The notes below the pieces were generated by a model. It searched no databases. It saw nothing but the letters and a program-made list of their open reading frames with translations, and was not told where the DNA came from. DNA of 64,000 nt from Thermoleophilaceae bacterium (GTDB lineage Bacteria > Actinomycetota > Thermoleophilia > Solirubrobacterales > Thermoleophilaceae), in NCBI GenBank assembly GCA_036378175.1, contig DASUWY010000051.1:62001-126000 (forward strand). The letters are read 5' to 3'. Below are positions 231 through 39,986 of the stretch, piece by piece. The translations under genes and the position numbers were made by a program. Position 1 is the first letter of the stretch. Each line of letters opens with the position of its first letter.

Positions 231-2783
231 TTGGTCTCGCCAAACGACATCTCCACGCCCACCCGAGACGCCGCAGGCTCCAGCGCCCAAGCCTCGACCG
301 GGCCCGCCGTTGCCGTCGCTCAGTCGCCGGCCGCTCATCGCTCGAACGGTGCCTCGCCGCACAGCCGGGTGCGCGTGGACGGGAAGTTCTTCGCAACGGG
401 CGATGTGCGCTTCCAGTTCCGCGGCGTCACGTACGGGACGTTCGCCCCGCGCCGCGACGGCGCCCAGTTCCCCGAGCGGGAGCAGCTAGAGCGCGACTTC
501 GCCGCGATCCAACGAGCCGGCTTCACGGTGGTCCGCACCTACACGCCGCCCCCCGAGGACCTGCTCGAGCTGGCCAGCGCGCACGGCCTGCGCGTGCTGG
601 CCGGCGTGTTCTACCCGGACTGGCGCTACCTCCTGGGTGGGTCGCGGCGGCAGACCCGCCAGGTGGCGCGCGAGGCCCGCCGCGAGGTGAGGACCGCTGC
701 GCGCCGCTTGGCCGGCAACGAGCAGATCCTCGCGCTGTCGCTCGGAAACGAGGTGCCGGCCGACGTGCTGCGCTGGCACGGCATGGGCATGGTGGCTCGG
801 ACGATCCGGGAGCTGGTCGAGATCGTGCGCGACGAGGACCCCGAGCAGCTCGTCACGTACGCCAACTACCCCACGGCCGAATACCTCCCGCTCGAAAGCC
901 TCGACTTCATGATGTTCAACGTCTTCCTCGAGAGACAGGCGGACTTCCGGCGCTACCTCACCCGTCTTCACCACCTGGCCGGCGACCGGCCGCTCGTGCT
1001 CGGCGAGCTCGGCATCTCCGTGGGAGATGATCCCGAGGCGGAGGCGCAGCAGGCAGAGGTGCTGAACTGGCAGCTCGAGACCGCGCTCGAGCGCGGGGTG
1101 GCAGGCACGTGCGTGTTCTCGTGGACGGACGACTGGTGGGTGGGCGGCCAGCGCGTGGAGGGGTGGCACTTCGGGCTCACCGACGCCGTGCGGGCGCCGC
1201 GGCCGGCCCTGGAGGTTGCCCGGAGGTGGAACCGCTGCACGGTCCGCGACCTCTCGTTCCAGTGGCCGTCGGTGAGTGTGGTGATCTGCGCGCACAACTC
1301 GGCATCCACGCTGGAGGAGTGCCTGAGGCGCACGTGCACGCTCGAGTATCCGGACTACGAGGTGATCGTGGTGGACGACGGCTCGAGCGATGGCACCGCC
1401 GAGATCGCGCGCCGGCATTCGCGCGTTCGCCTGGTCCAGATCCCGCACAGCGGCCTGGCGGTGGCGCGCAACGAGGGCTTCCGCGCGGGCCGCGGCGACC
1501 TCGTGGCCTACCTCGACGCCGACGCCTATCCGAGCCCCGAGTGGCTGCACTACCTCGCGCTCGGGCTGGACGCTCCCAACGTGGCGGGTGTGGGCGGGCC
1601 GAACCTCCCGCCCCTTGACGATGGCACCGGCGCGCACGTGGTGGCGCGCTCGCCCGGAGGCCCGGTTCACGTGCTGGTGTCAGACGACCGCGCCGAGCAC
1701 GTGCCCGGCTGCAACATGGCGTTCTGGCGCGGCGTGCTCCCCGAGATCGGAGGGTTCGACCCCGTCTACACCGCAGCGGGCGACGACGTGGACTTCTGCT
1801 GGAAGGTGCTCGACCGCGGATGGGAGATCGGCTTTCACCCGGCGGCGGTGGTGTGGCATCACCGCAGGCCGGGACTGCACAAGTATCTGCGTCAGCAGTA
1901 CATCTACGGGAAGAGTGAGGCGCTCGTGGAGGTGCGCCACCCGGATCGCTTCACGCCGGCGGGCACAGCGCGCTGGCGCGGCCGGATCTACAACTCGCTG
2001 GCGCCCTCGCTACGGCAGCAGCGCATCTACCGAGGCGCCTACGGCGCCGCGGCGTACCAGTCCGTCTACCACGCCGGTGGCCATCTGCTCGACCTTCTGC
2101 ACCAGGTCGGAGTCCCCGCAGCCGCGCTGATGCTGCTCAGCGCCCCGCTCACCGTGTTGTCGCCGTGGCTCGCGCTGCCCGCGCTATCCGCGCTGGCCGG
2201 GCTCGTGGCGCTCGCGGTGGTGGACATGGTGCAGGCCCAGCCCCCTCGCCGGCTTGCGTCCCGCAGGCTCCGCTTCCGCGCGCGAGTGGCCCTCAACCAC
2301 CTGCTCCAGCCGCTCACCCGCTGGTGGGGCAGAGGCCGCCACCGGCAGCTCGCCCGTCGCGAGCTCGAAATTCCCCACACGCTGCCGCCGGCGGTGCGGC
2401 GCGTGCGCGGCGGCGTGGTGGTGGTGCTGGAGGATCGACCGCGCTCGGAGCTGGCCGAGGCCCTGATCGCCGCGCTGCGCCTACGCGGCATGCGCGCCAC
2501 CTGTCCGAGCGGCTGGGAGGACTACGACGCGCGCCTCTCGCTGTCGCCTTTCGCGTACGGCGAGCTGCAGACGAGCAGCCATCCCGAGGGCTACGTGCAG
2601 ATCCGCGTCCGTTTCCGGCCGCGCCGGCGTGTGGCTGCCGCTGCGGTGGCGGCCACGGCCGCGGCTCTGCTCATAAACGTCGGCCTAGCCGTGGTGCTGG
2701 TCGCGCTCCTGGCGAGCGTGGGCCGCGCGGCGATACGCGCGCGGCAGCTTCCGTCCCGGATTCTTCCCGCGGAGGCTGAGTGA
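231..2783 (+). CDS. Glycoside hydrolase-like / GT2 glycosyltransferase membrane fusion protein
   Basis: The 850-residue protein joins two carbohydrate-active domains. Residues about 45-330 resemble a TIM-barrel glycoside hydrolase, with GNEV (E174) as candidate acid/base and GELG (E259) as candidate nucleophile. Residues about 345-600 are a family 2 glycosyltransferase, with VVDDGSSDGT for nucleotide binding, a DxD-type LDADA (D429/D431) and a DDVDFCW acceptor motif. Hydrophobic segments near 625-665 and 800-835 suggest membrane attachment. The TTG start at 231 is uncertain because the best ribosome-binding tract lies further upstream; the first 45 residues look disordered, so the domains are unaffected. 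It overlaps the next gene by 4 bp (GTGA), opening a coupled run. It probably builds or remodels a surface glycan at the membrane; the substrate is unknown. Confidence 0.8.
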   Translation: MVSPNDISTPTRDAAGSSAQASTGPAVAVAQSPAAHRSNGASPHSRVRVDGKFFATGDVRFQFRGVTYGTFAPRRDGAQFPEREQLERDFAAIQRAGFTVVRTYTPPPEDLLELASAHGLRVLAGVFYPDWRYLLGGSRRQTRQVAREARREVRTAARRLAGNEQILALSLGNEVPADVLRWHGMGMVARTIRELVEIVRDEDPEQLVTYANYPTAEYLPLESLDFMMFNVFLERQADFRRYLTRLHHLAGDRPLVLGELGISVGDDPEAEAQQAEVLNWQLETALERGVAGTCVFSWTDDWWVGGQRVEGWHFGLTDAVRAPRPALEVARRWNRCTVRDLSFQWPSVSVVICAHNSASTLEECLRRTCTLEYPDYEVIVVDDGSSDGTAEIARRHSRVRLVQIPHSGLAVARNEGFRAGRGDLVAYLDADAYPSPEWLHYLALGLDAPNVAGVGGPNLPPLDDGTGAHVVARSPGGPVHVLVSDDRAEHVPGCNMAFWRGVLPEIGGFDPVYTAAGDDVDFCWKVLDRGWEIGFHPAAVVWHHRRPGLHKYLRQQYIYGKSEALVEVRHPDRFTPAGTARWRGRIYNSLAPSLRQQRIYRGAYGAAAYQSVYHAGGHLLDLLHQVGVPAAALMLLSAPLTVLSPWLALPALSALAGLVALAVVDMVQAQPPRRLASRRLRFRARVALNHLLQPLTRWWGRGRHRQLARRELEIPHTLPPAVRRVRGGVVVVLEDRPRSELAEALIAALRLRGMRATCPSGWEDYDARLSLSPFAYGELQTSSHPEGYVQIRVRFRPRRRVAAAAVAATAAALLINVGLAVVLVALLASVGRAAIRARQLPSRILPAEAE

Positions 2784-5700
2784 CCGAGGGTGACGCAGGC
2801 GCACACGCGGTCGGCGATGTAGGCGATCTCTCAGCAGAAGAACGCGCGCTGATCACCGAGATGCTGGGCGCGCCCACGACGAAGGGCGCTCTCAGGCGCG
2901 GCTTCAAGGTGATGCCGCGGATCCTTCCCTACCTCAAGCCTTACCGGAAGTTCGCGGTGATCTCGGTCACGCTCACGGTCCTCCTCGCGGTCCTCGCGCT
3001 GGCGCAACCGTGGCCGCTCGCCTTCACGGTCGACAGCATCATCGGCCACAAGGAGCCACCGAGCTGGGTAACGAACATCTTCGGCTCGAGCGTCGGGGCG
3101 AAGATCCTGCTCGCCGTCGGCGCGACGCTGTTCCTCACCGCGGTGTCCGGCCTGATGACCGTGTGGAACGAGTACCTCTCGACGACGATCGACCAGCGGA
3201 TGGTCCTCGACTTCCGCAGCGACATGTTCGAGCACGCCCAGAAGCTGTCGCTGGCGTTCCACGACACCGAGAGCAAGGGCATCCTGATGTACCGGATCAA
3301 CAACCAGGCGTCCGCCATGGGCTCGATCGTGGTCGCTCTTCCGGCGCTCGCGCAGAACCTGCTCACGGTGGTGGGCATGGCCTACATCTCGGTGAGGATC
3401 AATCCGCTGCTGGCCCTGCTCGCGCTCGGCACCACGCCGTTCGTCGTCTACTCCACCACCTACTACACAGAGCGCATCGAGCCGCGCCTTTACCGCGTGC
3501 GCGGCCTCGGCGCCATAAACCTCGCGATCGTCTACGAGGCCATGTCGATGATCCGCGTGGTGCTTGCGTTCGGCACGCAGCGCCGCGAGTTCAAGCGCTT
3601 CCGTCAGCAGGGGGAGACGTTCGTGGACGAGACCGTCGGGCTGACGGTCCGTCAGACCGCGTTCAAGCTCGGAGTGCAGTTGATCACCGCGGCCGGTACG
3701 GCTTCCGTGATCGGTGTGGGCGCCTACCAGGCGGTGAACCATCAGATCACGGCCGGCGAGCTGCTGGTGATTCTCTCCTACATCAACCAGATCTACCAGC
3801 CGCTCGAGGAGCTCACGAACACCATCACGAACTTCCAGCAGCAGTTCATCTCCCTGCTGATGTCGTTCGACCTGATGGACATCAAGCCCGACATCACGGA
3901 CAAGGAGGGTGCCCTTCCGCTCGAGCGGGCGCGCGGCGATCTCGAGTTCGACCACGTCGACTTCGGCTACGACGGACGGGATGGCGTCCTGAAGGACATC
4001 TCGTTACACATCCCCGCCGGCCAAGCCGTGGCCGTGGTGGGGCCAACCGGTGCCGGCAAATCCACGCTCGCGAGCCTGCCGCCGCGCTTCTATGACCCCG
4101 CCGGCGGCACGCTGCGGATCGACGGTCATGACCTTCGCGACCTGAAGACCGCGGATGTCCGCAAGCAGTTCAGCATCGTTCTCCAAGAGCCGCTGCTGTT
4201 CTCCGGCACGATCGCGAACAACATCAGGTACGGCAAGACGGATGCGTCGATGGAGGAGGTGATCGAGGCGGCCAAGGCGGCGAACGCCCATGACTTCATC
4301 TCCGAAATGCCTCAGGGCTACAGCACGCTGCTCGGCGAGCGCGGGACGAGGATCTCGGGCGGCGAGCGCCAGCGAATCGCAGTGGCGCGGGCGTTCCTGC
4401 GCGACGCGCCGATCCTGATCCTCGACGAGCCCACCTCCTCGATCGACTCGCGCACGGAGTCGGTGATCCTCGATGCGCTGGACCGGCTGATGGAGGGTCG
4501 TACCACGATCCTGATCGCGCACCGGCTCTCGACCATCCGGAGCGTGGACGAGATCGTGGTGATGGATCACGGCCAGATCGTGCAGCGCGGCACCCACGAG
4601 GAGCTGGCCGCGGAGGCCGGCCTGTACCGGCAGCTCTGGGAGGCGCAGACCCGGGCGGGGGACGGTCTGCCGCCGCCCACCGCGCCAGCCCTGCCTCCGC
4701 CCAAGCCGGCCCGACCGGCGATTGCGCCGGTCGCGAGATTGGACGCCCTGAGGCTGAAGCATGCGGCGGCGGCGCATGCCGAGCGCGACGGCGCGGCCAG
4801 TGAGCCGGAAGCGGCGCGCGGCGCCCGCGTGGCGTTGCCACGCCCGAAGATCGTTCTGCTCGGAATGCTCACCAAGATTCCCGTCGGCGGCGTGGCGTGG
4901 CTGGTGGGCCACTACGCCGCGGGCTTCGAGCGCCTCGGCTACGACGTCTACTACGTGGAGGCGCATGCGCGCACACCGTCGATGTTCATGACGCACGAGG
5001 ACGACGACGGCGCGGGCAAGGCCGCGGCTTACATCTCGAAGATCGCCAAGCGGTTCGGACTCGAGAATCGCTGGGCCTTCCAGGCCCTGCACGAGAACGG
5101 GCGCTGCTACGGGATGAGCGCGTCCGAGCTCGACCAGCTCTACAAGGACGCCGCGCTGATCGTGAACATGCACGGCGGCACGCTCCCGCTACCGGAGCAC
5201 GCCGCCACCGACCGCCTCGTGTTCCTCGGCACCGATCCGGTGGAGGTGGAGCTCGAGGTCGAACGCGGCGACGAGCGCGCTCTCGAGTTTCTCGACCAGC
5301 ACGTGGCCTACTTCACCTGGGGCCTCAATTTCGGGAACCAGGACTGCAAGCTGCCGTGGGCGCGCCCGTACCCGTTCGTGCCATCGCCGCCGCCCGTGGT
5401 GCTCGACTTCTGGGAGAACTCGGCCGAGCCCTCTGGCCCGTTCACCACGATCGGAAACTGGCGCCAGGAGTACCGCGACGTGGAGTTCGGCGGTCAGGTA
5501 TTTCGCTGGAGCAAGCACCAGCAGTTCATGAAGATCCTCGACCTGCCGATGCGCACGCGCGCGCGTATCGAGCTAGCGCTTTCGAGCTACGAGGGCACCG
5601 ACCGGCTGCTTCTTGCGGAGCACGGCTGGCGGGTGCGTCCCGGCCTCGAGCTCTCGCGCGATCCGGACAGCTACCGCGACTACATCGTCCAGTCCGCGGG

Positions 5701-6856
5701 CGAGGTCACCGCCGCGAAGGAACAGAACGTCCACTTCCGCACGGGCTGGTTCAGCGAACGGAGCGCCACGTACTTGGCTGCGGGACGGCCGGTGATCATG
5801 CAGGACACGGGCTTTGGCTCGGCCCTGCCCACGGGTGAGGGACTGTTCGCGTTCTCCAATCTCCAGGAAGCTGTCGAGGCGGTGAAGGAGGTGCAGGCCG
5901 ACCCGGCACGGCACCGTCGCGCCGCGAGCGAGCTCGCGCGTGAGTACCTGAGCCACGAGGTGGTGCTCGGCGACATGCTCGACCACGTGGGCCTGCGCGC
6001 GCAGAAGCAAGCGCGTCCCGCGAGCTTCCCCGGTCGCGCGGACCTTCCGCATGACCTGCCACTCGAGCTCTCAGGCGAGAGCGCATGGCGCGTCGCTCTC
6101 CGGCCCGTGCCGGCTGTGCGAGCGTCGGCACAGCGCCCGGCCGCGAGCGTGATCATGCCGGTGGACAACGACTTGCCGCGCACCCGGATGGCTCTCGAGG
6201 CGGTCCTCTCGAACAGCGCGGACTTCCCGTACGAGCTCGTGGTGGTCGATTGCGGATCCGCTGATCCCGTGCGTCAGTACCTGGAGGTCGTGGCCGCCCG
6301 TAACCGCCATGTCCGCCTCGTGCGCAGCGACGTGAAGCTCGGCTTCGCCGAGGCGTGCGACGCGGGCGCGCACGCCGGGACCGGCGACTTCCTCGTGGTG
6401 CTCGCGGCTCACACCGTCGTCACGCCGGGTTGGCTCGCGCCTCTCCTGGAATGCCTGGGCGATCCGACGGTCGGACTGGCCGGCCCGGCCACGAACAGTG
6501 CGGGAGGCGAGGACCAGATTCCCACCTCCTACGCGACCTACGGCGAGCTGGTGGATTTCGCGCGCCGGCGCCGCGAGGAGCTTGCGGGCGCCCCGCCCCG
6601 GGACGTCACCGCGAGCGAACTCTTCTGCGTCGCGCTCAACCGCGACGTCTACGAGGCGATCGGGCCATTTGCCGGGCGGGCCGACGGAGAGACGTCCGAG
6701 CACGACTACGCCGGCCGCGTCCGCAACGCCGGCCGGCGCGTGGTCTGCGCCTACGATGTCTTCGTGCATCGCTTCGGCGAGGGCTCGCTGGCGCACCTTG
6801 ACGGGGACTCCGAGCGCTCGCTCACACTGGTGGAGTCAGAGGAGGAGACCGCGTGA
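2780..6856 (+). CDS. ABC exporter fused to a CgeB-like glycosyltransferase and a GT2-like domain
   Basis: This 1358-residue protein has three parts. Residues about 40-330 are a six-helix ABC exporter membrane domain. Residues about 385-625 are its ATPase, with Walker A GPTGAGKST (about 421-429), Q-loop VLQEP, signature SGGERQ (about 526), Walker B LILDEPT (about 546-552) and switch IAHRLS, all intact. Residues about 690-1070 form a GT-B glycosyltransferase of the CgeB/spore-maturation type, with the WFSER...GRPVIMQDTG block shared with the genes at 33462, 34577 and 35714. Residues about 1117-1358 are GT2-like, but the DxD position reads LAAHT (1208-1212) where the next gene has LNDDT. GTG start, 4-bp overlaps on both sides. 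A half-exporter of the MsbA type normally stands alone, so this fusion suggests coupled synthesis and export of a glycan or glycolipid. Transport substrate unknown. Confidence 0.9.
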   Translation: MTEGDAGAHAVGDVGDLSAEERALITEMLGAPTTKGALRRGFKVMPRILPYLKPYRKFAVISVTLTVLLAVLALAQPWPLAFTVDSIIGHKEPPSWVTNIFGSSVGAKILLAVGATLFLTAVSGLMTVWNEYLSTTIDQRMVLDFRSDMFEHAQKLSLAFHDTESKGILMYRINNQASAMGSIVVALPALAQNLLTVVGMAYISVRINPLLALLALGTTPFVVYSTTYYTERIEPRLYRVRGLGAINLAIVYEAMSMIRVVLAFGTQRREFKRFRQQGETFVDETVGLTVRQTAFKLGVQLITAAGTASVIGVGAYQAVNHQITAGELLVILSYINQIYQPLEELTNTITNFQQQFISLLMSFDLMDIKPDITDKEGALPLERARGDLEFDHVDFGYDGRDGVLKDISLHIPAGQAVAVVGPTGAGKSTLASLPPRFYDPAGGTLRIDGHDLRDLKTADVRKQFSIVLQEPLLFSGTIANNIRYGKTDASMEEVIEAAKAANAHDFISEMPQGYSTLLGERGTRISGGERQRIAVARAFLRDAPILILDEPTSSIDSRTESVILDALDRLMEGRTTILIAHRLSTIRSVDEIVVMDHGQIVQRGTHEELAAEAGLYRQLWEAQTRAGDGLPPPTAPALPPPKPARPAIAPVARLDALRLKHAAAAHAERDGAASEPEAARGARVALPRPKIVLLGMLTKIPVGGVAWLVGHYAAGFERLGYDVYYVEAHARTPSMFMTHEDDDGAGKAAAYISKIAKRFGLENRWAFQALHENGRCYGMSASELDQLYKDAALIVNMHGGTLPLPEHAATDRLVFLGTDPVEVELEVERGDERALEFLDQHVAYFTWGLNFGNQDCKLPWARPYPFVPSPPPVVLDFWENSAEPSGPFTTIGNWRQEYRDVEFGGQVFRWSKHQQFMKILDLPMRTRARIELALSSYEGTDRLLLAEHGWRVRPGLELSRDPDSYRDYIVQSAGEVTAAKEQNVHFRTGWFSERSATYLAAGRPVIMQDTGFGSALPTGEGLFAFSNLQEAVEAVKEVQADPARHRRAASELAREYLSHEVVLGDMLDHVGLRAQKQARPASFPGRADLPHDLPLELSGESAWRVALRPVPAVRASAQRPAASVIMPVDNDLPRTRMALEAVLSNSADFPYELVVVDCGSADPVRQYLEVVAARNRHVRLVRSDVKLGFAEACDAGAHAGTGDFLVVLAAHTVVTPGWLAPLLECLGDPTVGLAGPATNSAGGEDQIPTSYATYGELVDFARRRREELAGAPPRDVTASELFCVALNRDVYEAIGPFAGRADGETSEHDYAGRVRNAGRRVVCAYDVFVHRFGEGSLAHLDGDSERSLTLVESEEETA

Positions 6857-8136
6857 GCAGCGCCCCGAGCGTTCACCGCCCGGCGTTCCCGGACGATCTC
6901 GTGCTCACCCCGGTGTCCCGGCGGCCGACGCGGCTCGAGGAGGCCACGCTCCGGACGATCCTCGACCGGCCGGTGCCGGCCTTTCCGGCCGCGTCAGCTG
7001 GGCCCGCCGAGACCAGCGTGATCGTGGTGACCCGAGACAACCTGCCCTTCCTGCGGCTGTGTCTCGAGAGCGCGCTCGAAGCCACGGGCGCGCCGTTCGA
7101 GCTCATCGTCGTGGACAACGGCTCGAGCGACGGGACCGCCGAGTACCTGGCGCGACTCGCCGAGCTCAACCCGGCGGTGCGGTTGATCGCGAACGCCTCG
7201 AACCGAGGTTTCGCGGCCGCCAACAACCAGGCCGCCGCGCTGGCGAGCGCGGACGTGCTCGTGCTCCTCAACGACGACACCGCGGTGACCCACGGTTGGC
7301 TAGAGCGCCTCACCGCACAGCTGGAGGGCCCCCGCGTTGGAATGGTCGGGCCCACCACCAACCGGATCGGCAACGAGGCGCAGATCGAGGCGCACTACCG
7401 GACCTGGGGCGAGCTCGTGGACTTTGCGGCCGAGCGCGCGGCGCGGCACGCGGGGGAGGCGTTCGAGATCCCGATGCTCACGATGTTCTGCGTCGCGATG
7501 CGGCGCTCGCTGTACGAGGCGATCGGTCCGCTCGACGAGCGCTTCGAGATTGGGCTGCTCGAGGATGACGACTACTCCCGGCGGGTGCGCGAGGCGGGAT
7601 ACCGATTGCTGTGTGCGGACGACGCCTTCGTCCACCACTTCGGCGAGACCTCGTTCGGCAAGCTCGCCGCGAGCGGCGAATACTCGCGCGTGCTGGAGGC
7701 CAACCGCGCCCGTTTCGAGGAGAAGTGGGGCGCGCCCTGGCAGCCGTACAACCGCCGCCAGAGCCCGTCTTATCTCGAGCTCATAGAGAACGTGCGACAG
7801 GCGGTGGCGGCCGTCGTGCCCGCAGGCGCGAAGGTGCTGATCGTGAGCCGCGGCGACGAGGAGCTGCTGCATGTGGAGGGCAGGCGCACAGGTCACTTCC
7901 CGTGCGCGGACAACGGCGCCTACGCGGGCCATCATCCCGCGGACGGGCGCGAGGCGATCGGGCTCGTGGCGGCCGAGCGCGAGGCGGGCGCCGACTACCT
8001 CGTCTTTCCCGCGACGGCCATGTGGTGGCTCGACCACTACGAGGACCTGCGGCTGCACCTCAACTCGCGCTACGCGCGCGTCGTCTCCGACCCCCAGTCG
8101 TGCGTGATCTTCGATCTCGCGGGGGCGCGCCGGTGA
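6853..8136 (+). CDS. GT2 glycosyltransferase with C-terminal recurring module
   Basis: The 427-residue protein has a family 2 glycosyltransferase domain at about 55-290: TSVIVVTRDN, VVDNGSSDGT, the metal-binding LNDDT (N140-T143) and an EDDDYS acceptor motif. It resembles rhamnosyltransferase-like enzymes of O-antigen loci. It is clearly a paralogue of the last domain of the preceding fusion, with alignable GELVDFA and YEAIGP blocks. Residues about 306-427 are a separate module (HFP...YAGHHPAD...WWLDHY) that recurs in the next two proteins. GTG start overlapping the previous stop by 4 bp; its own stop overlaps the next start by 4 bp. It probably transfers a sugar onto the same surface glycan; donor and acceptor cannot be told. 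Confidence 0.88.
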   Translation: MSSAPSVHRPAFPDDLVLTPVSRRPTRLEEATLRTILDRPVPAFPAASAGPAETSVIVVTRDNLPFLRLCLESALEATGAPFELIVVDNGSSDGTAEYLARLAELNPAVRLIANASNRGFAAANNQAAALASADVLVLLNDDTAVTHGWLERLTAQLEGPRVGMVGPTTNRIGNEAQIEAHYRTWGELVDFAAERAARHAGEAFEIPMLTMFCVAMRRSLYEAIGPLDERFEIGLLEDDDYSRRVREAGYRLLCADDAFVHHFGETSFGKLAASGEYSRVLEANRARFEEKWGAPWQPYNRRQSPSYLELIENVRQAVAAVVPAGAKVLIVSRGDEELLHVEGRRTGHFPCADNGAYAGHHPADGREAIGLVAAEREAGADYLVFPATAMWWLDHYEDLRLHLNSRYARVVSDPQSCVIFDLAGARR

Positions 8137-28962: not shown

Positions 28963-31449
28963 GTGGAGAGCGAACAGCTAACGAGCGAGCCCTCGCTCGC
29001 GCGGAATGGCAATGATGCGGATGCAGCGGCGCGCGCTACGCGCCGCTATCTGGACCTGCTCAGCGACGTACTGCTCGACGAGCACTACCTCGAGAACGAG
29101 GTGCGCATCGATCACCTGCTCGAGTGCGCAGGCACCGGACGGGCGCCGAATCCGAAGATCCTGGCCGACCCGAGTCGCTATAAGCCGCTCGCCCTACGCG
29201 AGCTCAGGGAAGCGCGCCGGACGGGCAGCCCGGCGAAGGGCACGGGCACCTTGCACAATCTCGCGTACGCGACCCTCGGCCGGGTTCGTCTCGACCATCT
29301 CGAGACGTGCCTCGAGGCGATCCGCGCCGACGGGGTCGAGGGTGATCTCGTGGAGTGCGGCAGCGGCCGAGCCGGAGCGGCGATTTTCATGCGCGGCTTC
29401 GTGGAGGCTCATGAGCTGGCCGGGCCGCGGGTGTGGGCCATCGATCGCTGGGGCGGCGGAGGCACCGGCGGCGCTGACAGGCCAACGTTCGTGGCCGACC
29501 TGAACGCGGTCAGGGAGGGCTTTGCGCGCTTCGGCCTGCTCGATGAGCGCGTGGCGTTCGCGCAGGGCGCGCTCGCCACAGCCGTTGGCGAGGTCTCTGC
29601 GGATGCGATCGCGCTCCTTCGGATCGACAGCGGAGATCCCGAGGACGTGAAAGCCGTGCTCGACGCTCTCTACGACCGAGTGAGGCCCGGCGGTTTCGTG
29701 GTGATCGACGGATATGGCGAGGCGGACTGCCGCGCCGCGGTCGACCGCTTCCGCGCCGAGCACGGCGTGCTCGATCCGCTCGAGCGCGTGGACTGGAGCG
29801 CCGCGACCTGGCGAAAGACGGCCGAGCCGCAGCCCGTGCGGGCTTCGAACGGCGCCGTCCGCGCCGCTCGAAAGACAGCGACGAAGGACCTCGCCGTGAT
29901 CGTCGTGACGTACAACATGCGCCGCGAGGCCTCGAGAACGCTCCATTCGCTGTCTCGGAGCTACCAGCGCGGAATTGATCACCTCGACTACGAGGTGATC
30001 GTGGTCGACAACGGCTCGCGGCCCGAGGAGCGGCTGGGGGAGGAGTTCGTTCGCAGCTTCGGCCCGCATTTCCGCTACATCGAGCTGGGAGCCGATTCGG
30101 CGCCGTCGCCCGCGCATGCGATCAACCGGGGCATCGCGGCATCCGATGCGAGCGCCGTCGCGATCATGATCGATGGCGCTCACGTGCTCACGCCCGGCGT
30201 CCTCCGCTTTGGGACGCTCGCGCTGTCCACCTACGAGCCGGCGGTGGCGGTCACGAAGCAGTGGTATCTCGGGCCGGGCCAGCAGCCCCAGACGGTCGCG
30301 GCGGGTTACGACAAGGACTACGAGGACCGCCTGTTCGCCCAGATCGACTGGCCGGCCGACGGGTACCGGCTCTTTGACGTCGGTCACTTCATCGGCAACC
30401 GCGACTGGTTCGACGGCGATTGGGAGAGCAACTGCATCTTCGTGCCGCGCTCGCTGATCGAGCAGGCGGGCGGGATGGACGAGAGCTTCTCGGTGCCCGG
30501 AGGCGGCTTCGTGAACCTCGACTTCTTCGAGCGGATGGTGGGCACGCCCGGGGCCACGGTGGTGACGATCCTCGGCGAGGGTTCGTTCCACCAGCTTCAC
30601 GGAGGGACGACCACGAACGAGGTCGAGCCCGACGACCTGATCAGGTCCTATGACGACCAGTACGAGGCGCTGAGAGGACGGCGCTTTCAGGTGCCCACAC
30701 CGCGGACGCACTTCATCGGCGGTATGCCGGACAGAGCCCGCCGCACAAGACCGCGCCACATGGCCAACTTCCGGGACTTCAAAGGCGCCCACGTGGGAGC
30801 GAGGGGCACGCGGCCGTCCCGCCCGGTGCCAGTGCCCCAGGATCTCAAGCTGGAGTTCATCGACGCCTTCTGGCGCAGCGGCGAGTGGCACAACACTCAA
30901 TGGCTCGGCAGGGCGGTGCACAGGGCACCCACCGACCTGTTTGCCTACCAGGAACTCGTCTTCCGGCTGAGGCCGGACTGGATCGTGGAGACCCGCACGG
31001 GCAGCGGCGGCCGTGCTCTGTTTCTCGCATCGATCTGCGATCTCGCGGGCGAGGGCCAGGTGCTCTCGATCGACGGCAATTCGCTCGCGACTCCTCCAGA
31101 GCACCCGCGGATCAAGTACCTGCACGGAAACGCGGCCGCCCCGCAAACCGCCGCACAGGCGCGGGACATCGTGGGGGAGAGCCCGAACGCACTCGTGATC
31201 CTGGGCGGCGGCTCGAACGTCCAGGTGCTCGATGCCTTCCGCAACTACGCCCCGTTCGTGCCCGTGGGGTCGTACGTCGTGGTCGAGGACACGATCCTGC
31301 AGGGCAACCCCGTGTGGACCGACTTCGGGCCGGGCCCGGCGGCCTCGGTTCAAGCGATCCTGAAGGAGGGCGATTTCGTTCCCGACTATTCACTCGAGCG
31401 CTTCGGGCTGACCTTCAACACGGGTGGCTACCTGAGGCGTGTGCGGTAG
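28963..31449 (+). CDS. TylF-like / GT2 / CmcI-like three-domain glycan-modifying protein
   Basis: The 828-residue protein starts at GTG 28963. Residues about 25-285 are TylF-like (LVECGSGRAGAAIFMRG and so on) but degenerate: the Asp pair expected in the metal site (VDDY in the paralogues) reads IDGYG, and the SFQGLP block is missing. Residues about 308-600 are a GT2 domain with VIVVTYNMRREASR and VVDNGSRPEE; the metal-site region reads IMIDGAHVL, with a single Asp. Residues about 622-828 resemble the cephalosporin-hydroxylase/CmcI-like SAM methyltransferase group (IVETRTGSGGRALFLASI, VLSIDGN). A protein with three modifying domains may act as a scaffold or multistep enzyme. It is followed by a stand-alone TylF gene five bases away. 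Confidence 0.8.
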   Translation: MESEQLTSEPSLARNGNDADAAARATRRYLDLLSDVLLDEHYLENEVRIDHLLECAGTGRAPNPKILADPSRYKPLALRELREARRTGSPAKGTGTLHNLAYATLGRVRLDHLETCLEAIRADGVEGDLVECGSGRAGAAIFMRGFVEAHELAGPRVWAIDRWGGGGTGGADRPTFVADLNAVREGFARFGLLDERVAFAQGALATAVGEVSADAIALLRIDSGDPEDVKAVLDALYDRVRPGGFVVIDGYGEADCRAAVDRFRAEHGVLDPLERVDWSAATWRKTAEPQPVRASNGAVRAARKTATKDLAVIVVTYNMRREASRTLHSLSRSYQRGIDHLDYEVIVVDNGSRPEERLGEEFVRSFGPHFRYIELGADSAPSPAHAINRGIAASDASAVAIMIDGAHVLTPGVLRFGTLALSTYEPAVAVTKQWYLGPGQQPQTVAAGYDKDYEDRLFAQIDWPADGYRLFDVGHFIGNRDWFDGDWESNCIFVPRSLIEQAGGMDESFSVPGGGFVNLDFFERMVGTPGATVVTILGEGSFHQLHGGTTTNEVEPDDLIRSYDDQYEALRGRRFQVPTPRTHFIGGMPDRARRTRPRHMANFRDFKGAHVGARGTRPSRPVPVPQDLKLEFIDAFWRSGEWHNTQWLGRAVHRAPTDLFAYQELVFRLRPDWIVETRTGSGGRALFLASICDLAGEGQVLSIDGNSLATPPEHPRIKYLHGNAAAPQTAAQARDIVGESPNALVILGGGSNVQVLDAFRNYAPFVPVGSYVVVEDTILQGNPVWTDFGPGPAASVQAILKEGDFVPDYSLERFGLTFNTGGYLRRVR

Positions 31450-33461: not shown

Positions 33462-34580
33462 CTACGGCTGGATACCCGCCTCCTCGCAAAACCGCGCCAG
33501 CACCAGTTCCGCCGCGAAGTGCTCCTCCGCGATCCGCCGCGCCGCGGAGCAGTGCTCCTCGTAGCGGGCGGCGATGTCGGCTGCGCCCGCCACGGCCTCC
33601 TCGAGATTGCTGAACGGCACAAGGCCCTCACCCACCGGCAACGTGCGGCTGAAGCCGGTGTCCTGCACCAGCGCGGGCTTGCCTGAGGCGAGGTAGCGTA
33701 CCGTGCGGTCGCTGAACCAGGCGCACCCGGTGCCGACGTAGACTCCCTGCGCCACCGAGAACTCGGCGCCCGAGCCCTGCACGTAGGAGCGGAACTCGTC
33801 CGGCGTGCGGGCCACCGCGCGTGGGTCCACCAGCACCCAGCCGTTTTCCCGCAGGGCCCTCAGGTCCGGCTCCTCGGCCGGGTGGATGTCCAGCGCGAGC
33901 TCGAAGCGCTGCGGCGAGCGGCGGGGCAGCTCCATAACCTTGCGGAACTCGTGGTGCTTGAGACCGTACGTGCGCCCGCCGTACTCGAGCGAGCCGAACG
34001 GGGCGCGCCAGCTCGCGACGGTGGTGAACCGGTCGAGCTCCGGCAGCGGCGTGGCCGGCCAGTCCTCCAGCACCACCGGCTGGCGAACGTGCTTCCAGTC
34101 GATGCCGGACGTCGGCACCGGGCACCCGGGCGTGCCGATCAGCTCGCCGATGGTGAAGTGGAGGTCGTGGCCGTCTAGGCGAGCGCCCGGGTCGCCCTGC
34201 TCGTGCCAGATCTGAGTGAAACCCGGGTCGGCGTCCACGAACACGCGCCGGCGGAAGGCATCGAAGAGGCGCCCGGGCGCGAGATGGCCGCTCATGTTCA
34301 CGAGCGTGGCGTCCGGGGCGAGCGCGAGCAGGTCGTCGAGGGAAGGTCCCGCAACGCCGACTCCGGCCGCGAGCAGGGTCGCGCGGCCGGTCATCTCGAA
34401 GCGCTCCATCACCTCGCTGAACCACGCAAGGGCCGCCGGTTCCGGGTAGGCGAGCTCCTCCACGAAGCGCACGTCCAGGCCGAGCCGCTCGAATCCGCGA
34501 ATCCAGCTCATCCGGAACCACGGCTCGCCTCCCACGCCCACCTTGTTGGCGAGTGCGCCCGCCACCACCACGACGCTCAT
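33462..34580 (-). CDS. CgeB-like GT-B glycosyltransferase
   Basis: The 372-residue protein starts at ATG 34580. It contains the block CAWFSDRTVRYLASGKPALV followed by QDTGFSRTLPVGEGLVPFS, characteristic of the CgeB/spore-maturation glycosyltransferase group, with a Rossmann-type N-terminal half (VVVVAGALANKVGVGGEPW). It is a paralogue of the next two genes and of residues about 690-1070 of the exporter fusion at 2780. The stop of the upstream gene overlaps its start by 4 bp. It likely transfers a sugar to the locus product; donor is unknown. Confidence 0.82.
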   Translation of the reverse strand: MSVVVVAGALANKVGVGGEPWFRMSWIRGFERLGLDVRFVEELAYPEPAALAWFSEVMERFEMTGRATLLAAGVGVAGPSLDDLLALAPDATLVNMSGHLAPGRLFDAFRRRVFVDADPGFTQIWHEQGDPGARLDGHDLHFTIGELIGTPGCPVPTSGIDWKHVRQPVVLEDWPATPLPELDRFTTVASWRAPFGSLEYGGRTYGLKHHEFRKVMELPRRSPQRFELALDIHPAEEPDLRALRENGWVLVDPRAVARTPDEFRSYVQGSGAEFSVAQGVYVGTGCAWFSDRTVRYLASGKPALVQDTGFSRTLPVGEGLVPFSNLEEAVAGAADIAARYEEHCSAARRIAEEHFAAELVLARFCEEAGIQP

Positions 34581-35689
34581 GACACTCCGAGCTTGCCGAT
34601 GAGCCGGGCGAGTACGCGGTCGGCCGCGAAGTGCTCCTCCGCGATCTCGCGCGCGGCGCGGCTGTGGCGCTCGTAGGCCCCGCTGATCTCCTCAGCCCCC
34701 GCCACCGCCTCGTCGAGGGTGGAGAAGGTGAGGAGACCCTCGCCGACCGGCACGAGTCCGTCGAGACCCGTGTCCTGAGCCAGCACCGGCCTGCCGGTGG
34801 CGAGGTAGCACGCGCTGCGATCGCTGAACCACCCCGCGCGCGTGTCCACATAGAGATTCTTCGCCACCATCAGCTCGGCGGACGATCCGCGCACGTAGTC
34901 CCGATAGCGCCACGGATCGCCGGCCACGGCGCGGGGGTCCACCAGGCGCCAGCCGTGCCGGCGCAGCCGCTCCAGATCGTCCGTCTCGGCCTCGTGGATG
35001 TCGAGCGCCAGCTCAAAATCGACGGGGCTGCGAGACGGAAGCTCGAGGAAGCGGCGGAACTCGTGAACGCGCAGCCCGTAGGTCCGGCCGGCGTACTCGA
35101 TCGGTCCGAACGCCCCCCGCCAGCTCGACACGCTCGTGAAGCGGCGGCCGCCCCCGCGCGCGTAAGGCCATTCGGCGAGGGCCACCGGCTGCTTGGTGGT
35201 CACCCAATCGATCCCGCACGTGGGCACGTCGCAGCCCGGCAGGCCTATCCGCTCCCCGATCGTCACGTAGCGGTGGTGTGCCTGGAATGGATCGTGCAGC
35301 CCCAGCTCGCGCCACATCTGCCCGAAGCCGGGATCGATGTCGAGGAACGCGCGCAGCGGCGCGGCTGCGAGCGTCTCCTCGTCGTCGAGGAAGCCCATCA
35401 CGTTGAGAAGCAGGACCGAACGCCGCGCCCGCTCCACCACCTCAGGCCGGCTCAGGCCGGCCACCTCGCGCCCCCCGTCGCGGAACAGCGCCCACGGGAT
35501 GTCGAAGTGCTCCATCACGTCCGCGAGGTAGCGCTGCCCGTCCTCCATGTCCGGCTCGAGGCGGTCCAGGAACAGAACGTCGTAGCCGAGGTGGCGAAAT
35601 CCGAGCAGATACTGGAGAAAGACCCATGTGTGCCCGCCCACGTACGGCCTCGCCGCGAGCGAGCCGGCGACGACTATGGTCTCGCCCAT
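34577..35689 (-). CDS. CgeB-like GT-B glycosyltransferase
   Basis: I start this 370-residue protein at ATG 35689, where the fold begins (MGETIVVAGSLAARPYVGG), although the frame is open further upstream. It shares with its neighbours the GWFSDRSACYLATGRPVLAQ block, a following DTG, and a GIDW...PVALAEW segment in the middle. Start codons of this gene and the next (+ strand, 35714) are only 24 bases apart. A GGGCGGGGG tract before the ATG may serve as ribosome-binding site. Role as in its paralogues: sugar transfer to the surface glycan, specificity unknown. Confidence 0.82.
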   Translation of the reverse strand: MGETIVVAGSLAARPYVGGHTWVFLQYLLGFRHLGYDVLFLDRLEPDMEDGQRYLADVMEHFDIPWALFRDGGREVAGLSRPEVVERARRSVLLLNVMGFLDDEETLAAAPLRAFLDIDPGFGQMWRELGLHDPFQAHHRYVTIGERIGLPGCDVPTCGIDWVTTKQPVALAEWPYARGGGRRFTSVSSWRGAFGPIEYAGRTYGLRVHEFRRFLELPSRSPVDFELALDIHEAETDDLERLRRHGWRLVDPRAVAGDPWRYRDYVRGSSAELMVAKNLYVDTRAGWFSDRSACYLATGRPVLAQDTGLDGLVPVGEGLLTFSTLDEAVAGAEEISGAYERHSRAAREIAEEHFAADRVLARLIGKLGVS

Positions 35690-35713
35690 GGCCCCCGCCC
35701 AGGAGCGGACTCG

Positions 35714-36835
35714 TTGAGCGCGCCGAGCCTCATCGTCAGCGGCATGATCGCAGCGACCCCGTGGCAGGGTGGGGCCACCTGGGCGGTGCTGCAGTACCTG
35801 CTCGGCTTCCGGCGCCTCGGCTGTGGCGTGTACTTCGCCGAGCCGGTCGACACGGTGGACCCCGATTCGGCCGCCTACTGCGAGCGGGTGATGCGGGACT
35901 TCGGGTTCGAGGGACGCTGGGCGCTCGTGCCCCGCGACGCCGGGGAGCCGGCCGGCATGTCGCGCGAGCGGCTGCGCGCCGCCGCACGCGAGGCGGACCT
36001 GCTCCTCAACGTGTCGGGAATGCTCGCCGAGCCCGACGTGCTCGAACACGTGCCCGTGCGCGCGTATCTCGATCTCGACCCGGCCTTCCTTCAGCTCTGG
36101 CACGCGGTGGAGGGCGTGGACATGCGTCTCGATGCCCACACGCACTTCGTGAGCGTGGCTGACGCGATCGGCAGCCCCGGCTGCCCGATCCCCACTTGCG
36201 GCCGAGACTGGCTCCCCACGCTCCCGCCCGTGGTGCTCGATGAATGGCCCGTGGCCTCCCGGCTCGAGCACCGCGCGAGCACCACCGTCGGGCACTGGCG
36301 CAGCTACGGCGCGATCTGGCACGAGGGCGTGCAGTACGGCCAGAAGGCGCACTCGCTTCGCCCGCTGATGGAGTTGCCGCGCCGGGCGCCGTCGCGCTTC
36401 GAGCTCGCGGTCGCGATCCATCCGGACGAGGCGAGCGACCTCGCCGCGCTGGAGGAGAACGGCTGGACCCTGCTCGACCCGGCCGAGGTGGCGGCGACGC
36501 CGGACGACTACCGCCGCTTCGTGCAGGGCTCGTGGGCGGAGTTCGGGTTGGCGAAGTCGGGCTACGTGGTGTCCGGCTCCGGCTGGTTCAGCGACCGCAG
36601 CGCCTGCTACCTCGCCTCGGGGCGCCCGGTGATCGCGCAAGACACGGGATTTGATCGCCGCCTCCCCACGGGCGAGGGGCTGTTCAGCTTCTCCTCCGTC
36701 GACGACGTCGTGGGGGCCATCGAGCAAATCGACGCGGACTACGAGCGCCAGCGCGCGGGGGCTCGCGCGATCGCCGAGGACCATCTCGACTCCGACCGCG
36801 TTCTCGGCGCGCTGCTGGAGAGGCTATGTCCCTGA
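35714..36835 (+). CDS. CgeB-like GT-B glycosyltransferase
   Basis: I start at TTG 35714, preceded by AGGAG at 35701-35705, because the conserved N-terminus (SLIVSGMIAATPWQGGATW) begins there; the frame upstream is the antisense of the previous gene. The 373-residue product ends with the GWFSDRSACYLASGRPVIAQ block and LPTGEGLFSFS, as in the paralogues. It heads a + strand unit with the kinase-like gene (10-bp overlap) and the HpnK-like deacetylase gene (4-bp overlap). That physical linkage joins the glycan locus with the hopanoid cluster. Confidence 0.82.
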   Translation: MSAPSLIVSGMIAATPWQGGATWAVLQYLLGFRRLGCGVYFAEPVDTVDPDSAAYCERVMRDFGFEGRWALVPRDAGEPAGMSRERLRAAAREADLLLNVSGMLAEPDVLEHVPVRAYLDLDPAFLQLWHAVEGVDMRLDAHTHFVSVADAIGSPGCPIPTCGRDWLPTLPPVVLDEWPVASRLEHRASTTVGHWRSYGAIWHEGVQYGQKAHSLRPLMELPRRAPSRFELAVAIHPDEASDLAALEENGWTLLDPAEVAATPDDYRRFVQGSWAEFGLAKSGYVVSGSGWFSDRSACYLASGRPVIAQDTGFDRRLPTGEGLFSFSSVDDVVGAIEQIDADYERQRAGARAIAEDHLDSDRVLGALLERLCP

Positions 36836-37767
36836 GCACCGTGCCGACGGACGGTGAGCTGCGCGAGCTGCTCGGAGGGGACGAGGTGGTGGAGCTGTCG
36901 CGCCGCCCGTATCGGTACGCCACGAGCGCAGCGCTCGACGAGCTGCAGGTCCGGCTGCGGGACGGCACGGAGCTCTCGCTCATCCTCAAGGAGCTCGCGC
37001 GCGAGCGTCTGATCGGCGACGCCCGGATCACCAAGCCCGACTTCACCTACGAGCCCGAACGCGAGCTCGCCACCTACCGCGACGTGCTCGCACCCGCCGG
37101 AATCGGCCCACGGTTCTACGGCACGGGCGAGGGGCAGTGGTTCGTGATCGAGAAGGTGCCCGGCGTCGAGCTGTGGCAGGTGGGCGAGCTCGAAATCTGG
37201 GAGGGCGTGGCAGGCTGGCTCGCCGGGTTTCACGCTCGCTTCGCGAATCGGGTGGACGCCGTGCGCGGAGCGAACCCGTACCTGATCGAGCACACCGAAG
37301 CGTGGTTCTGCGATTGGTGCGACCGGGCGCGTGCGGCGCTTGCCGGCGCGGGCGATCCTCGAGCCCCGGAGCTCGTGAGGGCGCTCAGCGGCTACGGCGA
37401 GGTGGCCGCCGCGCTGGCCAGCCTGCCGCGCCACTTCGTTCACGGCGAGTTCTACCCATCGAACGTGCTCGTTCGGCCGAGGCCGTTGCGCGTTTGCCCA
37501 GTGGACTGGGAGATGGCCGCAATCGGCCCGGCGGCCATGGACCTCGCGGCGCTCGTGGGCGGCTGGGGCGACGCAGAGCGCGAGCGGCTCATCGACGCGT
37601 ACGCGCGCGCCGGCACGCGGCTGCCGCACGGCGATGTGGAGCGCTGCCGCCTGCATTTCGCCCTCCAATGGCTCGGCTGGTCGCGGGAGTGGCGGCCGCC
37701 CCGCGAGCACGCGCACGACTGGGTGGGCGAGGCGCTCACGCTGGTGAGATCGCTGGGGCTCGCATGA
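36826..37767 (+). CDS. Aminoglycoside phosphotransferase-family (APH) kinase
   Basis: The 313-residue protein starts at ATG 36826, overlapping the previous gene by 10 bp. The kinase-like core has HGEFYPSNVLV, the catalytic loop where most APH enzymes have HGD, and CPVDWEMAAIGPAAMDLAAL as the metal-binding DxD-equivalent. N-terminal Lys and Glu residues of an ATP site are plausible (LILKEL). APH-type enzymes in such places phosphorylate sugars or small metabolites; an antibiotic-resistance role cannot be claimed. It is coupled to the HpnK-like gene by 4 bp, so its substrate may be a sugar of a hopanoid or glycan intermediate. Confidence 0.78.
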   Translation: MSLSTVPTDGELRELLGGDEVVELSRRPYRYATSAALDELQVRLRDGTELSLILKELARERLIGDARITKPDFTYEPERELATYRDVLAPAGIGPRFYGTGEGQWFVIEKVPGVELWQVGELEIWEGVAGWLAGFHARFANRVDAVRGANPYLIEHTEAWFCDWCDRARAALAGAGDPRAPELVRALSGYGEVAAALASLPRHFVHGEFYPSNVLVRPRPLRVCPVDWEMAAIGPAAMDLAALVGGWGDAERERLIDAYARAGTRLPHGDVERCRLHFALQWLGWSREWRPPREHAHDWVGEALTLVRSLGLA

Positions 37768-38462
37768 CCCGCAGGATCCTGATCGTGAACGCCGACGACT
37801 TCGGGCGCTCCCCCGGCGTCAACCGCGGCGTGATCCGGGCGCACGAGGAGGGGATAGTCACGAGCGCCTCGCTGATGGTCAGATGGGACGCCGCGGAGGA
37901 GGCGGCGACATACGCGCGCCGAAGCGATTCGCTGAGCGTGGGCCTCCATGTGGACCTTGGCGAGTGGGAGTACCGCGACGGCGATTGGCGCGCGCGCTAC
38001 GAGGTGCTCGCCGAGGAGACGCCGGCCGCGGTGGAAGAGGAGCTGCGACGGCAGCTCGAGCGTTTCGAGCGGCAGGTGGGGCGCCAGCCGACACATCTCG
38101 ACTCACACCAGCACGTCCACCGCGACGAGCCCGCGAGGTCGGCGGTGCTGGCGGCGGGCGAGCGCCTCGGCGTGCCCGTGCGCGCGCTCACGCCGAGCAT
38201 CGCCTACAGCGGTGTCTTCTATGGCCAGGACGGCAGGGGGTGGCCGGTGCCCGAGGCCATCGAGGTCGATGCGCTCGTGGCGGCGATCCAGGGATTGCCA
38301 GCGGGTACCACCGAGTTCGCATGCCACCCGGCCGCGGAGGCCGACCACGAATCGTCCTACGGCGAGGAGCGCACAAAGGAGCTCGAGACTCTGTGCGATC
38401 CCCGAGTCAAGGAGGCAATAGGAGCCGCCGGCATAGACCTGAGGGGCTTCGCGGATCTCTGA
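37764..38462 (+). CDS. ChbG/HpnK (YdjC)-family carbohydrate deacetylase
   Basis: I start at ATG 37764, the 4-bp overlap with the kinase gene, giving 232 residues of expected length. NADDFGRSPGVNRGVI near the N-terminus and THLDSHQHVHRDE at about 110 are the metal-binding motifs of the YdjC family, which removes acetyl groups from N-acetylated sugars. Members called HpnK occur in hopanoid clusters, and hpnC starts about 0.6 kb away. It might deacetylate an N-acetylhexosamine attached to a hopanoid or to the glycan. The exact substrate is inferred from position only. Confidence 0.82.
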   Translation: MTRRILIVNADDFGRSPGVNRGVIRAHEEGIVTSASLMVRWDAAEEAATYARRSDSLSVGLHVDLGEWEYRDGDWRARYEVLAEETPAAVEEELRRQLERFERQVGRQPTHLDSHQHVHRDEPARSAVLAAGERLGVPVRALTPSIAYSGVFYGQDGRGWPVPEAIEVDALVAAIQGLPAGTTEFACHPAAEADHESSYGEERTKELETLCDPRVKEAIGAAGIDLRGFADL

Positions 38463-38484: not shown

Positions 38485-38988
38485 TCAATCGCACCGCGCC
38501 TCGCCGATGAGCAGCTCGACGATCACCGTATCCATCCAGCGGCCATTGAGCTTCGCATGTCGCCGGTACACGCCCACTTCGCGGAAGCCGAGCGAGCGGC
38601 ACAGCGCGAGGCTTGCCACGTTCTCCGGAAAGATCCGGCTCACGAGCTTCCACATGTCACGTCGCGTGCATTCAGCGATCAGCGCCTCCACCGCCACACG
38701 CCCCGCGCCGCGACCGCGCGCCTCGCGCGCCACATAGACGGAGAAGTCGGCAACCCCGGAATACGGCGGCCGAGACGGCCGGTACGGCGGCGCGGACGCC
38801 CAGGCCACCACACCGGCATCCTCAACCACCACGAGCGGAAAGCCGGCGTCGAGCCAGCCCAAGATGTCGCCGGCCGCGCGCGGCGCCGTCTCGAACGTGG
38901 CGAGACCGTCCTCGATTCCCTCGTTGTAGATCCGCGCGATCGCCTCCGCGTCACGCGCCGTGGCTGTCCGTGCAAGCAATCCGCCCAT
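38485..38988 (-). CDS. GNAT-family N-acetyltransferase
   Basis: The 167-residue protein starts at ATG 38988. It has the layout of the phosphinothricin/methionine-sulfoximine acetyltransferase group: IYNEGIEDGLATFETAPR near the N-terminus, then YVAREARGRGAGRVAVEAL as the acetyl-CoA pyrophosphate loop and FPENVASLALCRSLGFREVG at the end. Length is complete. It lies between hpnK-like and hpnC genes on the opposite strand and is probably independent of them. Substrate is likely a small amino acid-like amine. Confidence 0.83.
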   Translation of the reverse strand: MGGLLARTATARDAEAIARIYNEGIEDGLATFETAPRAAGDILGWLDAGFPLVVVEDAGVVAWASAPPYRPSRPPYSGVADFSVYVAREARGRGAGRVAVEALIAECTRRDMWKLVSRIFPENVASLALCRSLGFREVGVYRRHAKLNGRWMDTVIVELLIGEARCD

Positions 38989-39074
38989 TGTGCGCGAATG
39001 TCACCAACAAGACCCCCCGGATGGGCGGCCGAATGGAAGAACCCGCCCTGGTCGCGGTAGTGTGCCGGGAACCT
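38989..39074. promoter_or_regulatory. Promoter region of the hopanoid operon
   Basis: These 86 bases separate the divergent GNAT gene from hpnC, so the promoter for the hpnC-hpnH operon should lie here or just inside the GNAT gene. GGTAGTGT at about 39056-39063 may be a -10 region. A weak GGGA stands four bases before the hpnC ATG. No operator-like palindrome was seen. Confidence 0.4.
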
Positions 39075-39986
39075 ATGTCGTCGACCCCGCTGCAAGCTCC
39101 CGCTTCTGCGTCTGAGCAGGGTGAATTGACCGCTGCGAAGGTCCCGCCGGGCCGCCTCCCGAGCGCCGAAGAGGTGATGGGGAAGTCGCGCCTCGAGAAC
39201 TTCCGCGTGGCCAACCCGGTGCTGCCGCGCGCGCTTCGCGCCGACCTCTACGCGCTGTACGGCTTCGCCCGCCTCGTGGACGACATCGGTGACGAGGCGG
39301 AGGGCGACCGCCTGGCGATGCTCGACTGGCTCGACGGCGAGGTGAACGCGCTCTATGCGGGCCGGCCGGAGCACGAGCTCATGCAACGTCTATTGCCGAC
39401 GGTCCGCGCGCACGCAATCCCCCCCGACCCGTTCCGCCGGCTGATCGAGGCCAACCGGCGCGACCAGGAGGTCACGCGCTACCGCACGTTCGACGAGCTG
39501 CTCGACTATTGCCGGCTCTCGGCGGACCCGGTCGGCCATCTCGTGCTCTACGTCTTCGACCGTGCCACGCCCGAGCGCATGGAGCTGTCGGACCGCGTGT
39601 GCTCGGGTCTCCAGATCGTCGAGCACCTTCAGGACGTGGCGGAGGACCTCGACCGCGGCCGCATCTACCTTCCCCTGGAGGACATGGAGAGATACGGCTG
39701 CACGGTGGAGGACCTTGCAACGCGTCCCACTCCAGTGGGCGTGCGGCAGGTGGTGGCGTTCGAGGCGCTGCGCGCTCGCCGCCTGCTCGACGAGGGCGCG
39801 CCGCTCGCGCGCACGTTGCCGTGGCGCGCGGGCCTCGCGGTGGCGGGCTTCGCGGCCGGCGGCCGGGCCGCTCTCGGCGCGATCGAGCGCTGCGACTACG
39901 ACGTGCTCGCCGGCGCCCCGCGCGCGTCGCAGCCGCGCCGCCTCGCCGCCTTCTTGACCATCCTGCTCCGGCTCGCGAGGACCTGA
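39075..39986 (+). CDS. hpnC: Hydroxysqualene synthase HpnC
   Basis: I start at ATG 39075 (303 residues); the frame upstream is the antisense of the GNAT gene. The trans-prenyltransferase fold has the two acidic Mg2+ motifs DDIGD (residues 69-73) and DVAED, plus GRIYLPLEDMERYG. In the hopanoid pathway HpnC converts presqualene diphosphate to hydroxysqualene, acting between HpnD and HpnE. The next gene (hpnD) starts directly at the following base, so both are clearly in one operon. Assignment to HpnC rather than HpnD rests on sequence style and gene order. Confidence 0.88.
   Translation: MSSTPLQAPASASEQGELTAAKVPPGRLPSAEEVMGKSRLENFRVANPVLPRALRADLYALYGFARLVDDIGDEAEGDRLAMLDWLDGEVNALYAGRPEHELMQRLLPTVRAHAIPPDPFRRLIEANRRDQEVTRYRTFDELLDYCRLSADPVGHLVLYVFDRATPERMELSDRVCSGLQIVEHLQDVAEDLDRGRIYLPLEDMERYGCTVEDLATRPTPVGVRQVVAFEALRARRLLDEGAPLARTLPWRAGLAVAGFAAGGRAALGAIERCDYDVLAGAPRASQPRRLAAFLTILLRLART

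Follow-up and report, generated by a model that had tools for sequence, protein, structure and literature searches.

Four ancient lineages of predicted GT-B glycosyltransferases in a putative glycan assembly and export cassette common to several bacterial phyla

The enzymes discussed here can be compared with several described systems. GT4-type GT-B enzymes (BshA, PimA, HepE, tetrahydrobiopterin glucosyltransferase) resemble one of our glycosyltransferases, copy A, in their whole fold and in the GxP turn of the donor-binding half, but share only about 11-13% identity with it. In retaining enzymes of the GT4 type, an EX7E motif precedes the GxP turn, whereas the family studied here lacks its glutamates. 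A second point of comparison is Glyco_trans_1_2 (PF13524), which we take to be the family that bears the CgeB label. Of the 122 family members, 68 match it at E <= 0.01 (best 2.2e-7), while the copies under study either stay under its curated cut-off or do not match. The titles and abstract openings of the literature searched make no link between CgeB and such a cassette. Single-chain ABC exporters of lipid-linked glycans (MsbA, PglK, Wzk) are similar to the exporter half encoded here (440.6 bits with the MsbA model TIGR02203), and Wzk and PglK provide the analogy behind the role that we give to this exporter. Unlike MsbA, it scores below the model cut-off of 602 and is C-terminally fused to two glycosyltransferase domains. 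ChbG and HpnK, of the YdjC family, have PF04794 and the motifs NADDF and DSHQH in common with the YdjC protein of our locus, yet this protein is neither of the two named enzymes (127.9 bits with the ChbG model NF002559 and 124 with HpnK, against cut-offs of 227 and 232.6). Finally, in ABC-dependent capsules, KpsC and KpsS make a constant linker. The counterpart here would be a conserved set of glycan-linker genes that accompanies an ABC exporter amid variable neighbors, as an analogy of idea only. Combinations of GT-B transferases and an ABC glycan exporter are a known kind, and the present set is a variant of this kind that is older and wider than first thought. No description of this gene set was found in the literature searched, which comprised titles and abstract openings with few subscription journals and preprints.

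The window, i.e., the whole 64-kb stretch of DNA that was analyzed, contains four copies of one family, named after the clades (A to D) in which they fall. The clade A copy (34577..35689, minus strand) encodes 370 aa from an ATG at 35689. Its stop is overlapped by 4 bases by the start of the clade B copy (33462..34580, minus strand; 372 aa). The clade C copy (35714..36835, plus strand; 373 aa) is divergent from A and has a TTG start with AGGAG upstream. About 27 kb away from these three lies the clade D copy (4844..6004, plus strand), which corresponds to residues 689-1075 of a 1358-aa exporter fusion (2780..6856, plus strand) composed of an MsbA-like ABC exporter (ABC_membrane at 61-342, ABC_tran at 404-553), the clade D GT-B domain and a GT2 tail. 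A six-frame scan for WFS[DE]R[ST] finds exactly four sites in the window (5747 and 36584 on the plus strand, 34831 and 33719 on the minus strand), all within long open frames and followed by YLA.G[KR]P, QDTG and P.GEGL. The motifs listed in a preliminary description of this DNA are thus present in all four copies, apart from the spacing between P and QDTG, which is three residues where five had been given. The four domains can be aligned end to end and are homologous across their full length, with pairwise identities of 33-50%: 49.9% for B-A, 46.5% for A-C, 43.4% for B-C and 33.4-36.0% for the fused D domain against the stand-alone copies. A profile of the four, for which all 30 candidates were scored, retrieves these copies and nothing else from the whole 4.29-Mb genome. 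Motif scan, full-length alignment and genome profile search together bear out the earlier view of one glycosyltransferase family with four linked copies, one of them exporter-fused. A and C diverge from start codons that lie 24 bases apart (35690-35713); promoters would have to sit within coding sequence. Short divergent gaps are seen again in loci L019 and L026.

The AlphaFold2 model of copy A, based on a 122-row alignment, has a mean pLDDT of 97.3 and a pTM of 0.95, and displays the two Rossmann-like domains of the GT-B fold. Its top Foldseek match in the PDB is a mannosyltransferase (E 2e-9), and a structural aligner superposes it on GT-B enzymes with Z values of 22.6-23.5 across 313-323 residues, the value of 23.5 belonging to a UDP-bound glucosyltransferase. 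By sequence, no PDB relative was found below E 0.27. Because the best Z values obtained with the model all belong to GT-B enzymes, copy A is a predicted GT-B protein and, by homology to the modelled copy, so are B, C and D. Neither Pfam nor NCBIfam provided a confident family for the stand-alone copies. The label "CgeB-like", used in the preliminary description, finds weak support: with PF13524 (cut-off 25 bits), C scores 19.2 and D, within the fusion, 16.6, while A and B have no match at E <= 0.1. Gly19, Asp119-Pro120, Glu272 and Arg291 are 99-100% conserved across the clades in 182 members (Arg291 is called invariant), which suggests a common active site. The EX7E glutamates are absent when the spacing is counted from the GxP turn. 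The two positions are occupied by Gly286 (98%) and by the clade-specific residue 294, which is C, R, C and T in clades A, B, C and D, respectively. Donor binding may therefore differ, or some copies may be non-catalytic.

To compare loci, one genome per species was scanned for 84,980 species. This confirmed 506 related stretches, and the best 80 of these 506 gave 69 loci, a sample that leans to close relatives. The loci come from eleven named phyla according to labels from database records, some of which may be wrong. Six loci that looked like second copies of others were removed before counting per locus. In the non-duplicate loci, A occurs in 38, B in 54, C in 50 and D in 20, with a maximum of one copy per clade in each. 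The arrangement is conserved in two groups. One runs from an ABC exporter to D (usually with GT2), the other from A-B-C to an APH-like kinase and then to a YdjC deacetylase. In 39 of 39 loci, B comes after A on the same strand (within 200 bases in 28), and C comes after B in 46 of 53 (within 200 bases in 31). An APH-like gene comes directly after C (within 300 bases) in 37 of the 42 loci with room, and YdjC is the next gene in 24 of the 32 of those loci with room. C points away from A-B in the window, and the close relatives L017, L019 and L026 show the same divergent layout. The linked copies that the preliminary description proposed to seek in related genomes are thus indeed found, with A-B-C in conserved order and never two genes of one clade at a locus. 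Distances between A, B and C are correlated (Mantel r of 0.605 for A-B, 0.585 for B-C and 0.541 for A-C, reached by 0 of 2000 permutations each), and so are C-D distances (8 loci; 4 of 2000 permutations). The A-D and B-D correlations are not significant (reached by 166 and 225 of 2000 permutations), so that D may have moved independently of A and B. B and C occur without full-length A or D within the sequence covered in 14 of 75 loci. All four clades, together with exporter, YdjC and APH-like genes, are found in the cultured Singulisphaera acidiphila DSM 18658 (L025). Judged by these sequence comparisons, the four clades recur together with exporter, APH-like and YdjC genes as a gene set common to several phyla.

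In the window, the APH-like (PF01636) kinase gene (36826..37767, plus strand) overlaps clade C by 10 bases, and its product scores 61.3 bits with the PF01636 model. APH kinases have their catalytic Asp in an HGD....N loop; the window protein reads HGEFYPSN, and Glu replaces the catalytic Asp in 36 of the 42 APH-like genes near C (35 HGE, 1 HNE). No NCBIfam antibiotic-kinase model comes near its cut-off for the window protein. The YdjC/ChbG-like deacetylase gene (37764..38462, plus strand) follows with an ATGA overlap of 4 bases, and its product matches PF04794 at 4.3e-50.

The exporter half of the fusion has ABC_membrane and ABC_tran domains with Walker A, signature and Walker B, as is typical of ABC exporters of the half-transporter type. 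Of the 18 D genes with room (window included), 14 have an exporter directly upstream. The other four are L025, L027, L029 and L040, of which L025 has an exporter downstream. Best-match identities were compared in three carrier genomes and the window's own genome. In three of the three other carriers, no protein matches the window exporter better than the exporter encoded next to D (55, 51 and 48%, versus 31-40% for the next long matches), which argues that the exporter belongs to the set. As to the earlier suggestion that an exporter captured one of the copies, the fusion is real, but D already adjoins an exporter in other genomes, so that it joined pre-existing neighbors. Exporter and D are fused in the window and in L086. 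Placing these two D domains in one clade is rejected (AU p 4.6e-22). The two were thus probably fused twice; otherwise, one old fusion would have been split many times later. A domain scan further shows D fused to GT2 in eleven loci (window included), B fused to C in L033, and C fused to the APH-like domain in L017. The GT2 tail of the window fusion (6134..6799, plus strand), its C-terminal domain, reads AAHT at the DXD-like motif instead of the N[NS]DT that all 10 other GT2 domains fused to D have, and it may be inactive. Directly after the fusion, a separate GT2 glycosyltransferase gene (6853..8136, plus strand), of a family that neighbors the set in other loci too, has an intact NDDT. Since the C-terminus of the ABC domain lies in the cytoplasm, the fused D and GT2 domains would be cytoplasmic as well. 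In L086, the fusion of ABC exporter and clade D domain is part of an open frame of 3181 aa (308-9850) that further includes GT2, sulfotransferase and GT4 domains.

Upstream of and between the cassette parts, the window carries GT2, GT4 and sulfotransferase genes, genes for TylF methyltransferases, further GT2 genes and genes for two hexapeptide acyltransferases. Across loci, the neighboring families recur but vary: APH-like in 36 loci, YdjC in 32, GT2 in 20, exporter in 18 and others in at most 13, counts that are limited by flank length. A protein with three domains, TylF-GT2-RMNT_CmcI, is encoded at 28963-31449, with an identical order in L016 and L026. Directly after the cassette, a hopanoid run is found (38613-46146: hpnC, hpnD, hpnE, ispH, squalene-hopene cyclase, hpnG-like). 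A PF02397 enzyme, which would initiate a polymer, is missing from the window's contig and encoded only elsewhere in the genome. Copy A has no match in the plasmid collection, and there is no PHROG family below E 0.35 and hence no phage link. The set occurs in 7 of 61 near genomes (own included), and a same-genus genome that is 88% complete is without the copies. Matches were obtained in 29 of 399 genomes of the class (26 strong) and in 11 of 396 of the phylum (7 strong), in searches that scored four candidates per genome and would miss copy numbers above four. Such a patchy distribution is what one expects of a surface-glycan locus that is exchanged.

For the phylogeny, domain matches below 100 bits or covering fewer than 320 model positions were removed, as were eight overlapping loci. 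IQ-TREE, using 95 of the 182 rows (the long row L013 is among those omitted), places each window copy in a clade of its own, with 100% bootstrap for all four, and FastTree with 182 rows likewise separates them into four. Clades A, B and C each include Actinomycetota, Planctomycetota, Chloroflexota, Gemmatimonadota, Verrucomicrobiota and Acidobacteriota, and clade D the first four of these phyla, where the lists include fragments assigned by best match. A further 44 rows fall in related clades outside A-D and are often tandem as well. Each of the 131 members with a locus-mate is nearer to an orthologue from elsewhere than to any of its mates, and none of the 131 has the profile of a recent tandem duplicate. 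Each window copy has an orthologue in another genome at 63-69% identity, against 33-50% to its mates in the window. With four multi-phylum clades and orthologues closer than locus-mates, the duplications appear older than the spread of the set, and the four copies are, by this phylogenetic evidence, ancient distinct lineages and not recent duplicates. The preliminary description had instead proposed a recent local duplication in this lineage, after which the exporter captured one copy. The linkage of the copies in one genome, where they occur nowhere else, and the same-genus genome without them fit that proposal. However, it had itself named copies branching far apart as the tree pattern that speaks against it, and this is the pattern obtained. 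The 100%-supported clades and the closer orthologues in 131 of 131 cases rule it out, and its remaining probability is negligible.

The reading that we prefer, and that we consider about evenly balanced between right and wrong, is that A-D are four ancient, non-interchangeable GT-B transferases of one subfamily, fixed in a multi-phylum cassette for glycan assembly and export and each adding its own sugar. The cassette probably builds and exports a surface sugar chain. Because no clade is represented twice at any locus, four distinct steps appear likelier than the repeated sugar or the several acceptors suggested earlier. Unlikely, but deserving some weight, is the idea that the product is not a cell-surface polysaccharide but a small natural product (a glycoside or glycolipid), which the APH-like protein would phosphorylate to protect the producer and the ABC pump would export. 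The patchy distribution would fit, and the APH-like, ABC exporter and deacetylase genes recall the parts list of aminoglycoside-type clusters. The exchange of the catalytic Asp for Glu in the APH-like proteins beside C and the distance to any antibiotic-kinase model argue against it, as do the polysaccharide-type glycosyltransferases and sulfotransferases among the neighbors. Somewhat less probable still is that at least one of the paralogues lacks catalytic activity and serves as partner of an active copy in a heteromeric complex. The replacement of both EX7E glutamates, with a clade-specific residue at the second position, agrees with such a role, and the B-C and C-APH fusions suggest physical contact, but the residues kept at 99-100% suggest a shared active site. 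We regard a membrane lipid, perhaps a hopanoid, as a very unlikely target of the glycosylation. This would be in line with the start of hpnC, hpnD, hpnE and squalene-hopene cyclase just past the YdjC gene and with the score of the YdjC protein for HpnK. That score is far under the cut-off, however, and the window hopanoid genes have no match at any other locus examined. The hopanoid link was rejected, as these genes follow the cassette in this window only among the loci examined.

If the preferred reading of four distinct transferases is correct, A, B and C would each add one sugar on the cytoplasmic side and thus assemble a constant oligosaccharide (core or linker). The YdjC enzyme would take an acetyl group off an N-acetylhexosamine of this oligosaccharide, and the APH-like protein would phosphorylate it or otherwise act on it. 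At the exporter, tethered or adjacent to the nucleotide-binding domain, D would add the sugar by which the chain becomes committed to export. The variable neighbors (GT2, GT4, sulfotransferases, TylF methyltransferases, hexapeptide acyltransferases) would decorate or extend the glycan, and the exporter would carry the finished glycan over the membrane. More broadly, it is conceivable, though on the whole doubtful, that the six phyla listed for clades A-C share an undescribed glycan-export pathway. In this pathway, paralogous transferases would build a constant linker and a transferase coupled to the ABC exporter, and apparently twice fused with it, would perform the last or committing step, making synthesis and export one machine. 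Nearly all carriers found are uncultured bacteria from metagenomes. A, B, C and D with the exporter, APH-like and YdjC genes could serve as a marker set to recognize and count the glycan locus in genomes. The exporter-transferase fusion offers a direct way to ask whether completing the chain is coupled to its export, and the cultured carrier S. acidiphila makes experiments possible. At a further locus (L049), an APS kinase gene (6024-6797) adjoins the cassette, consistent with a sulfated product.
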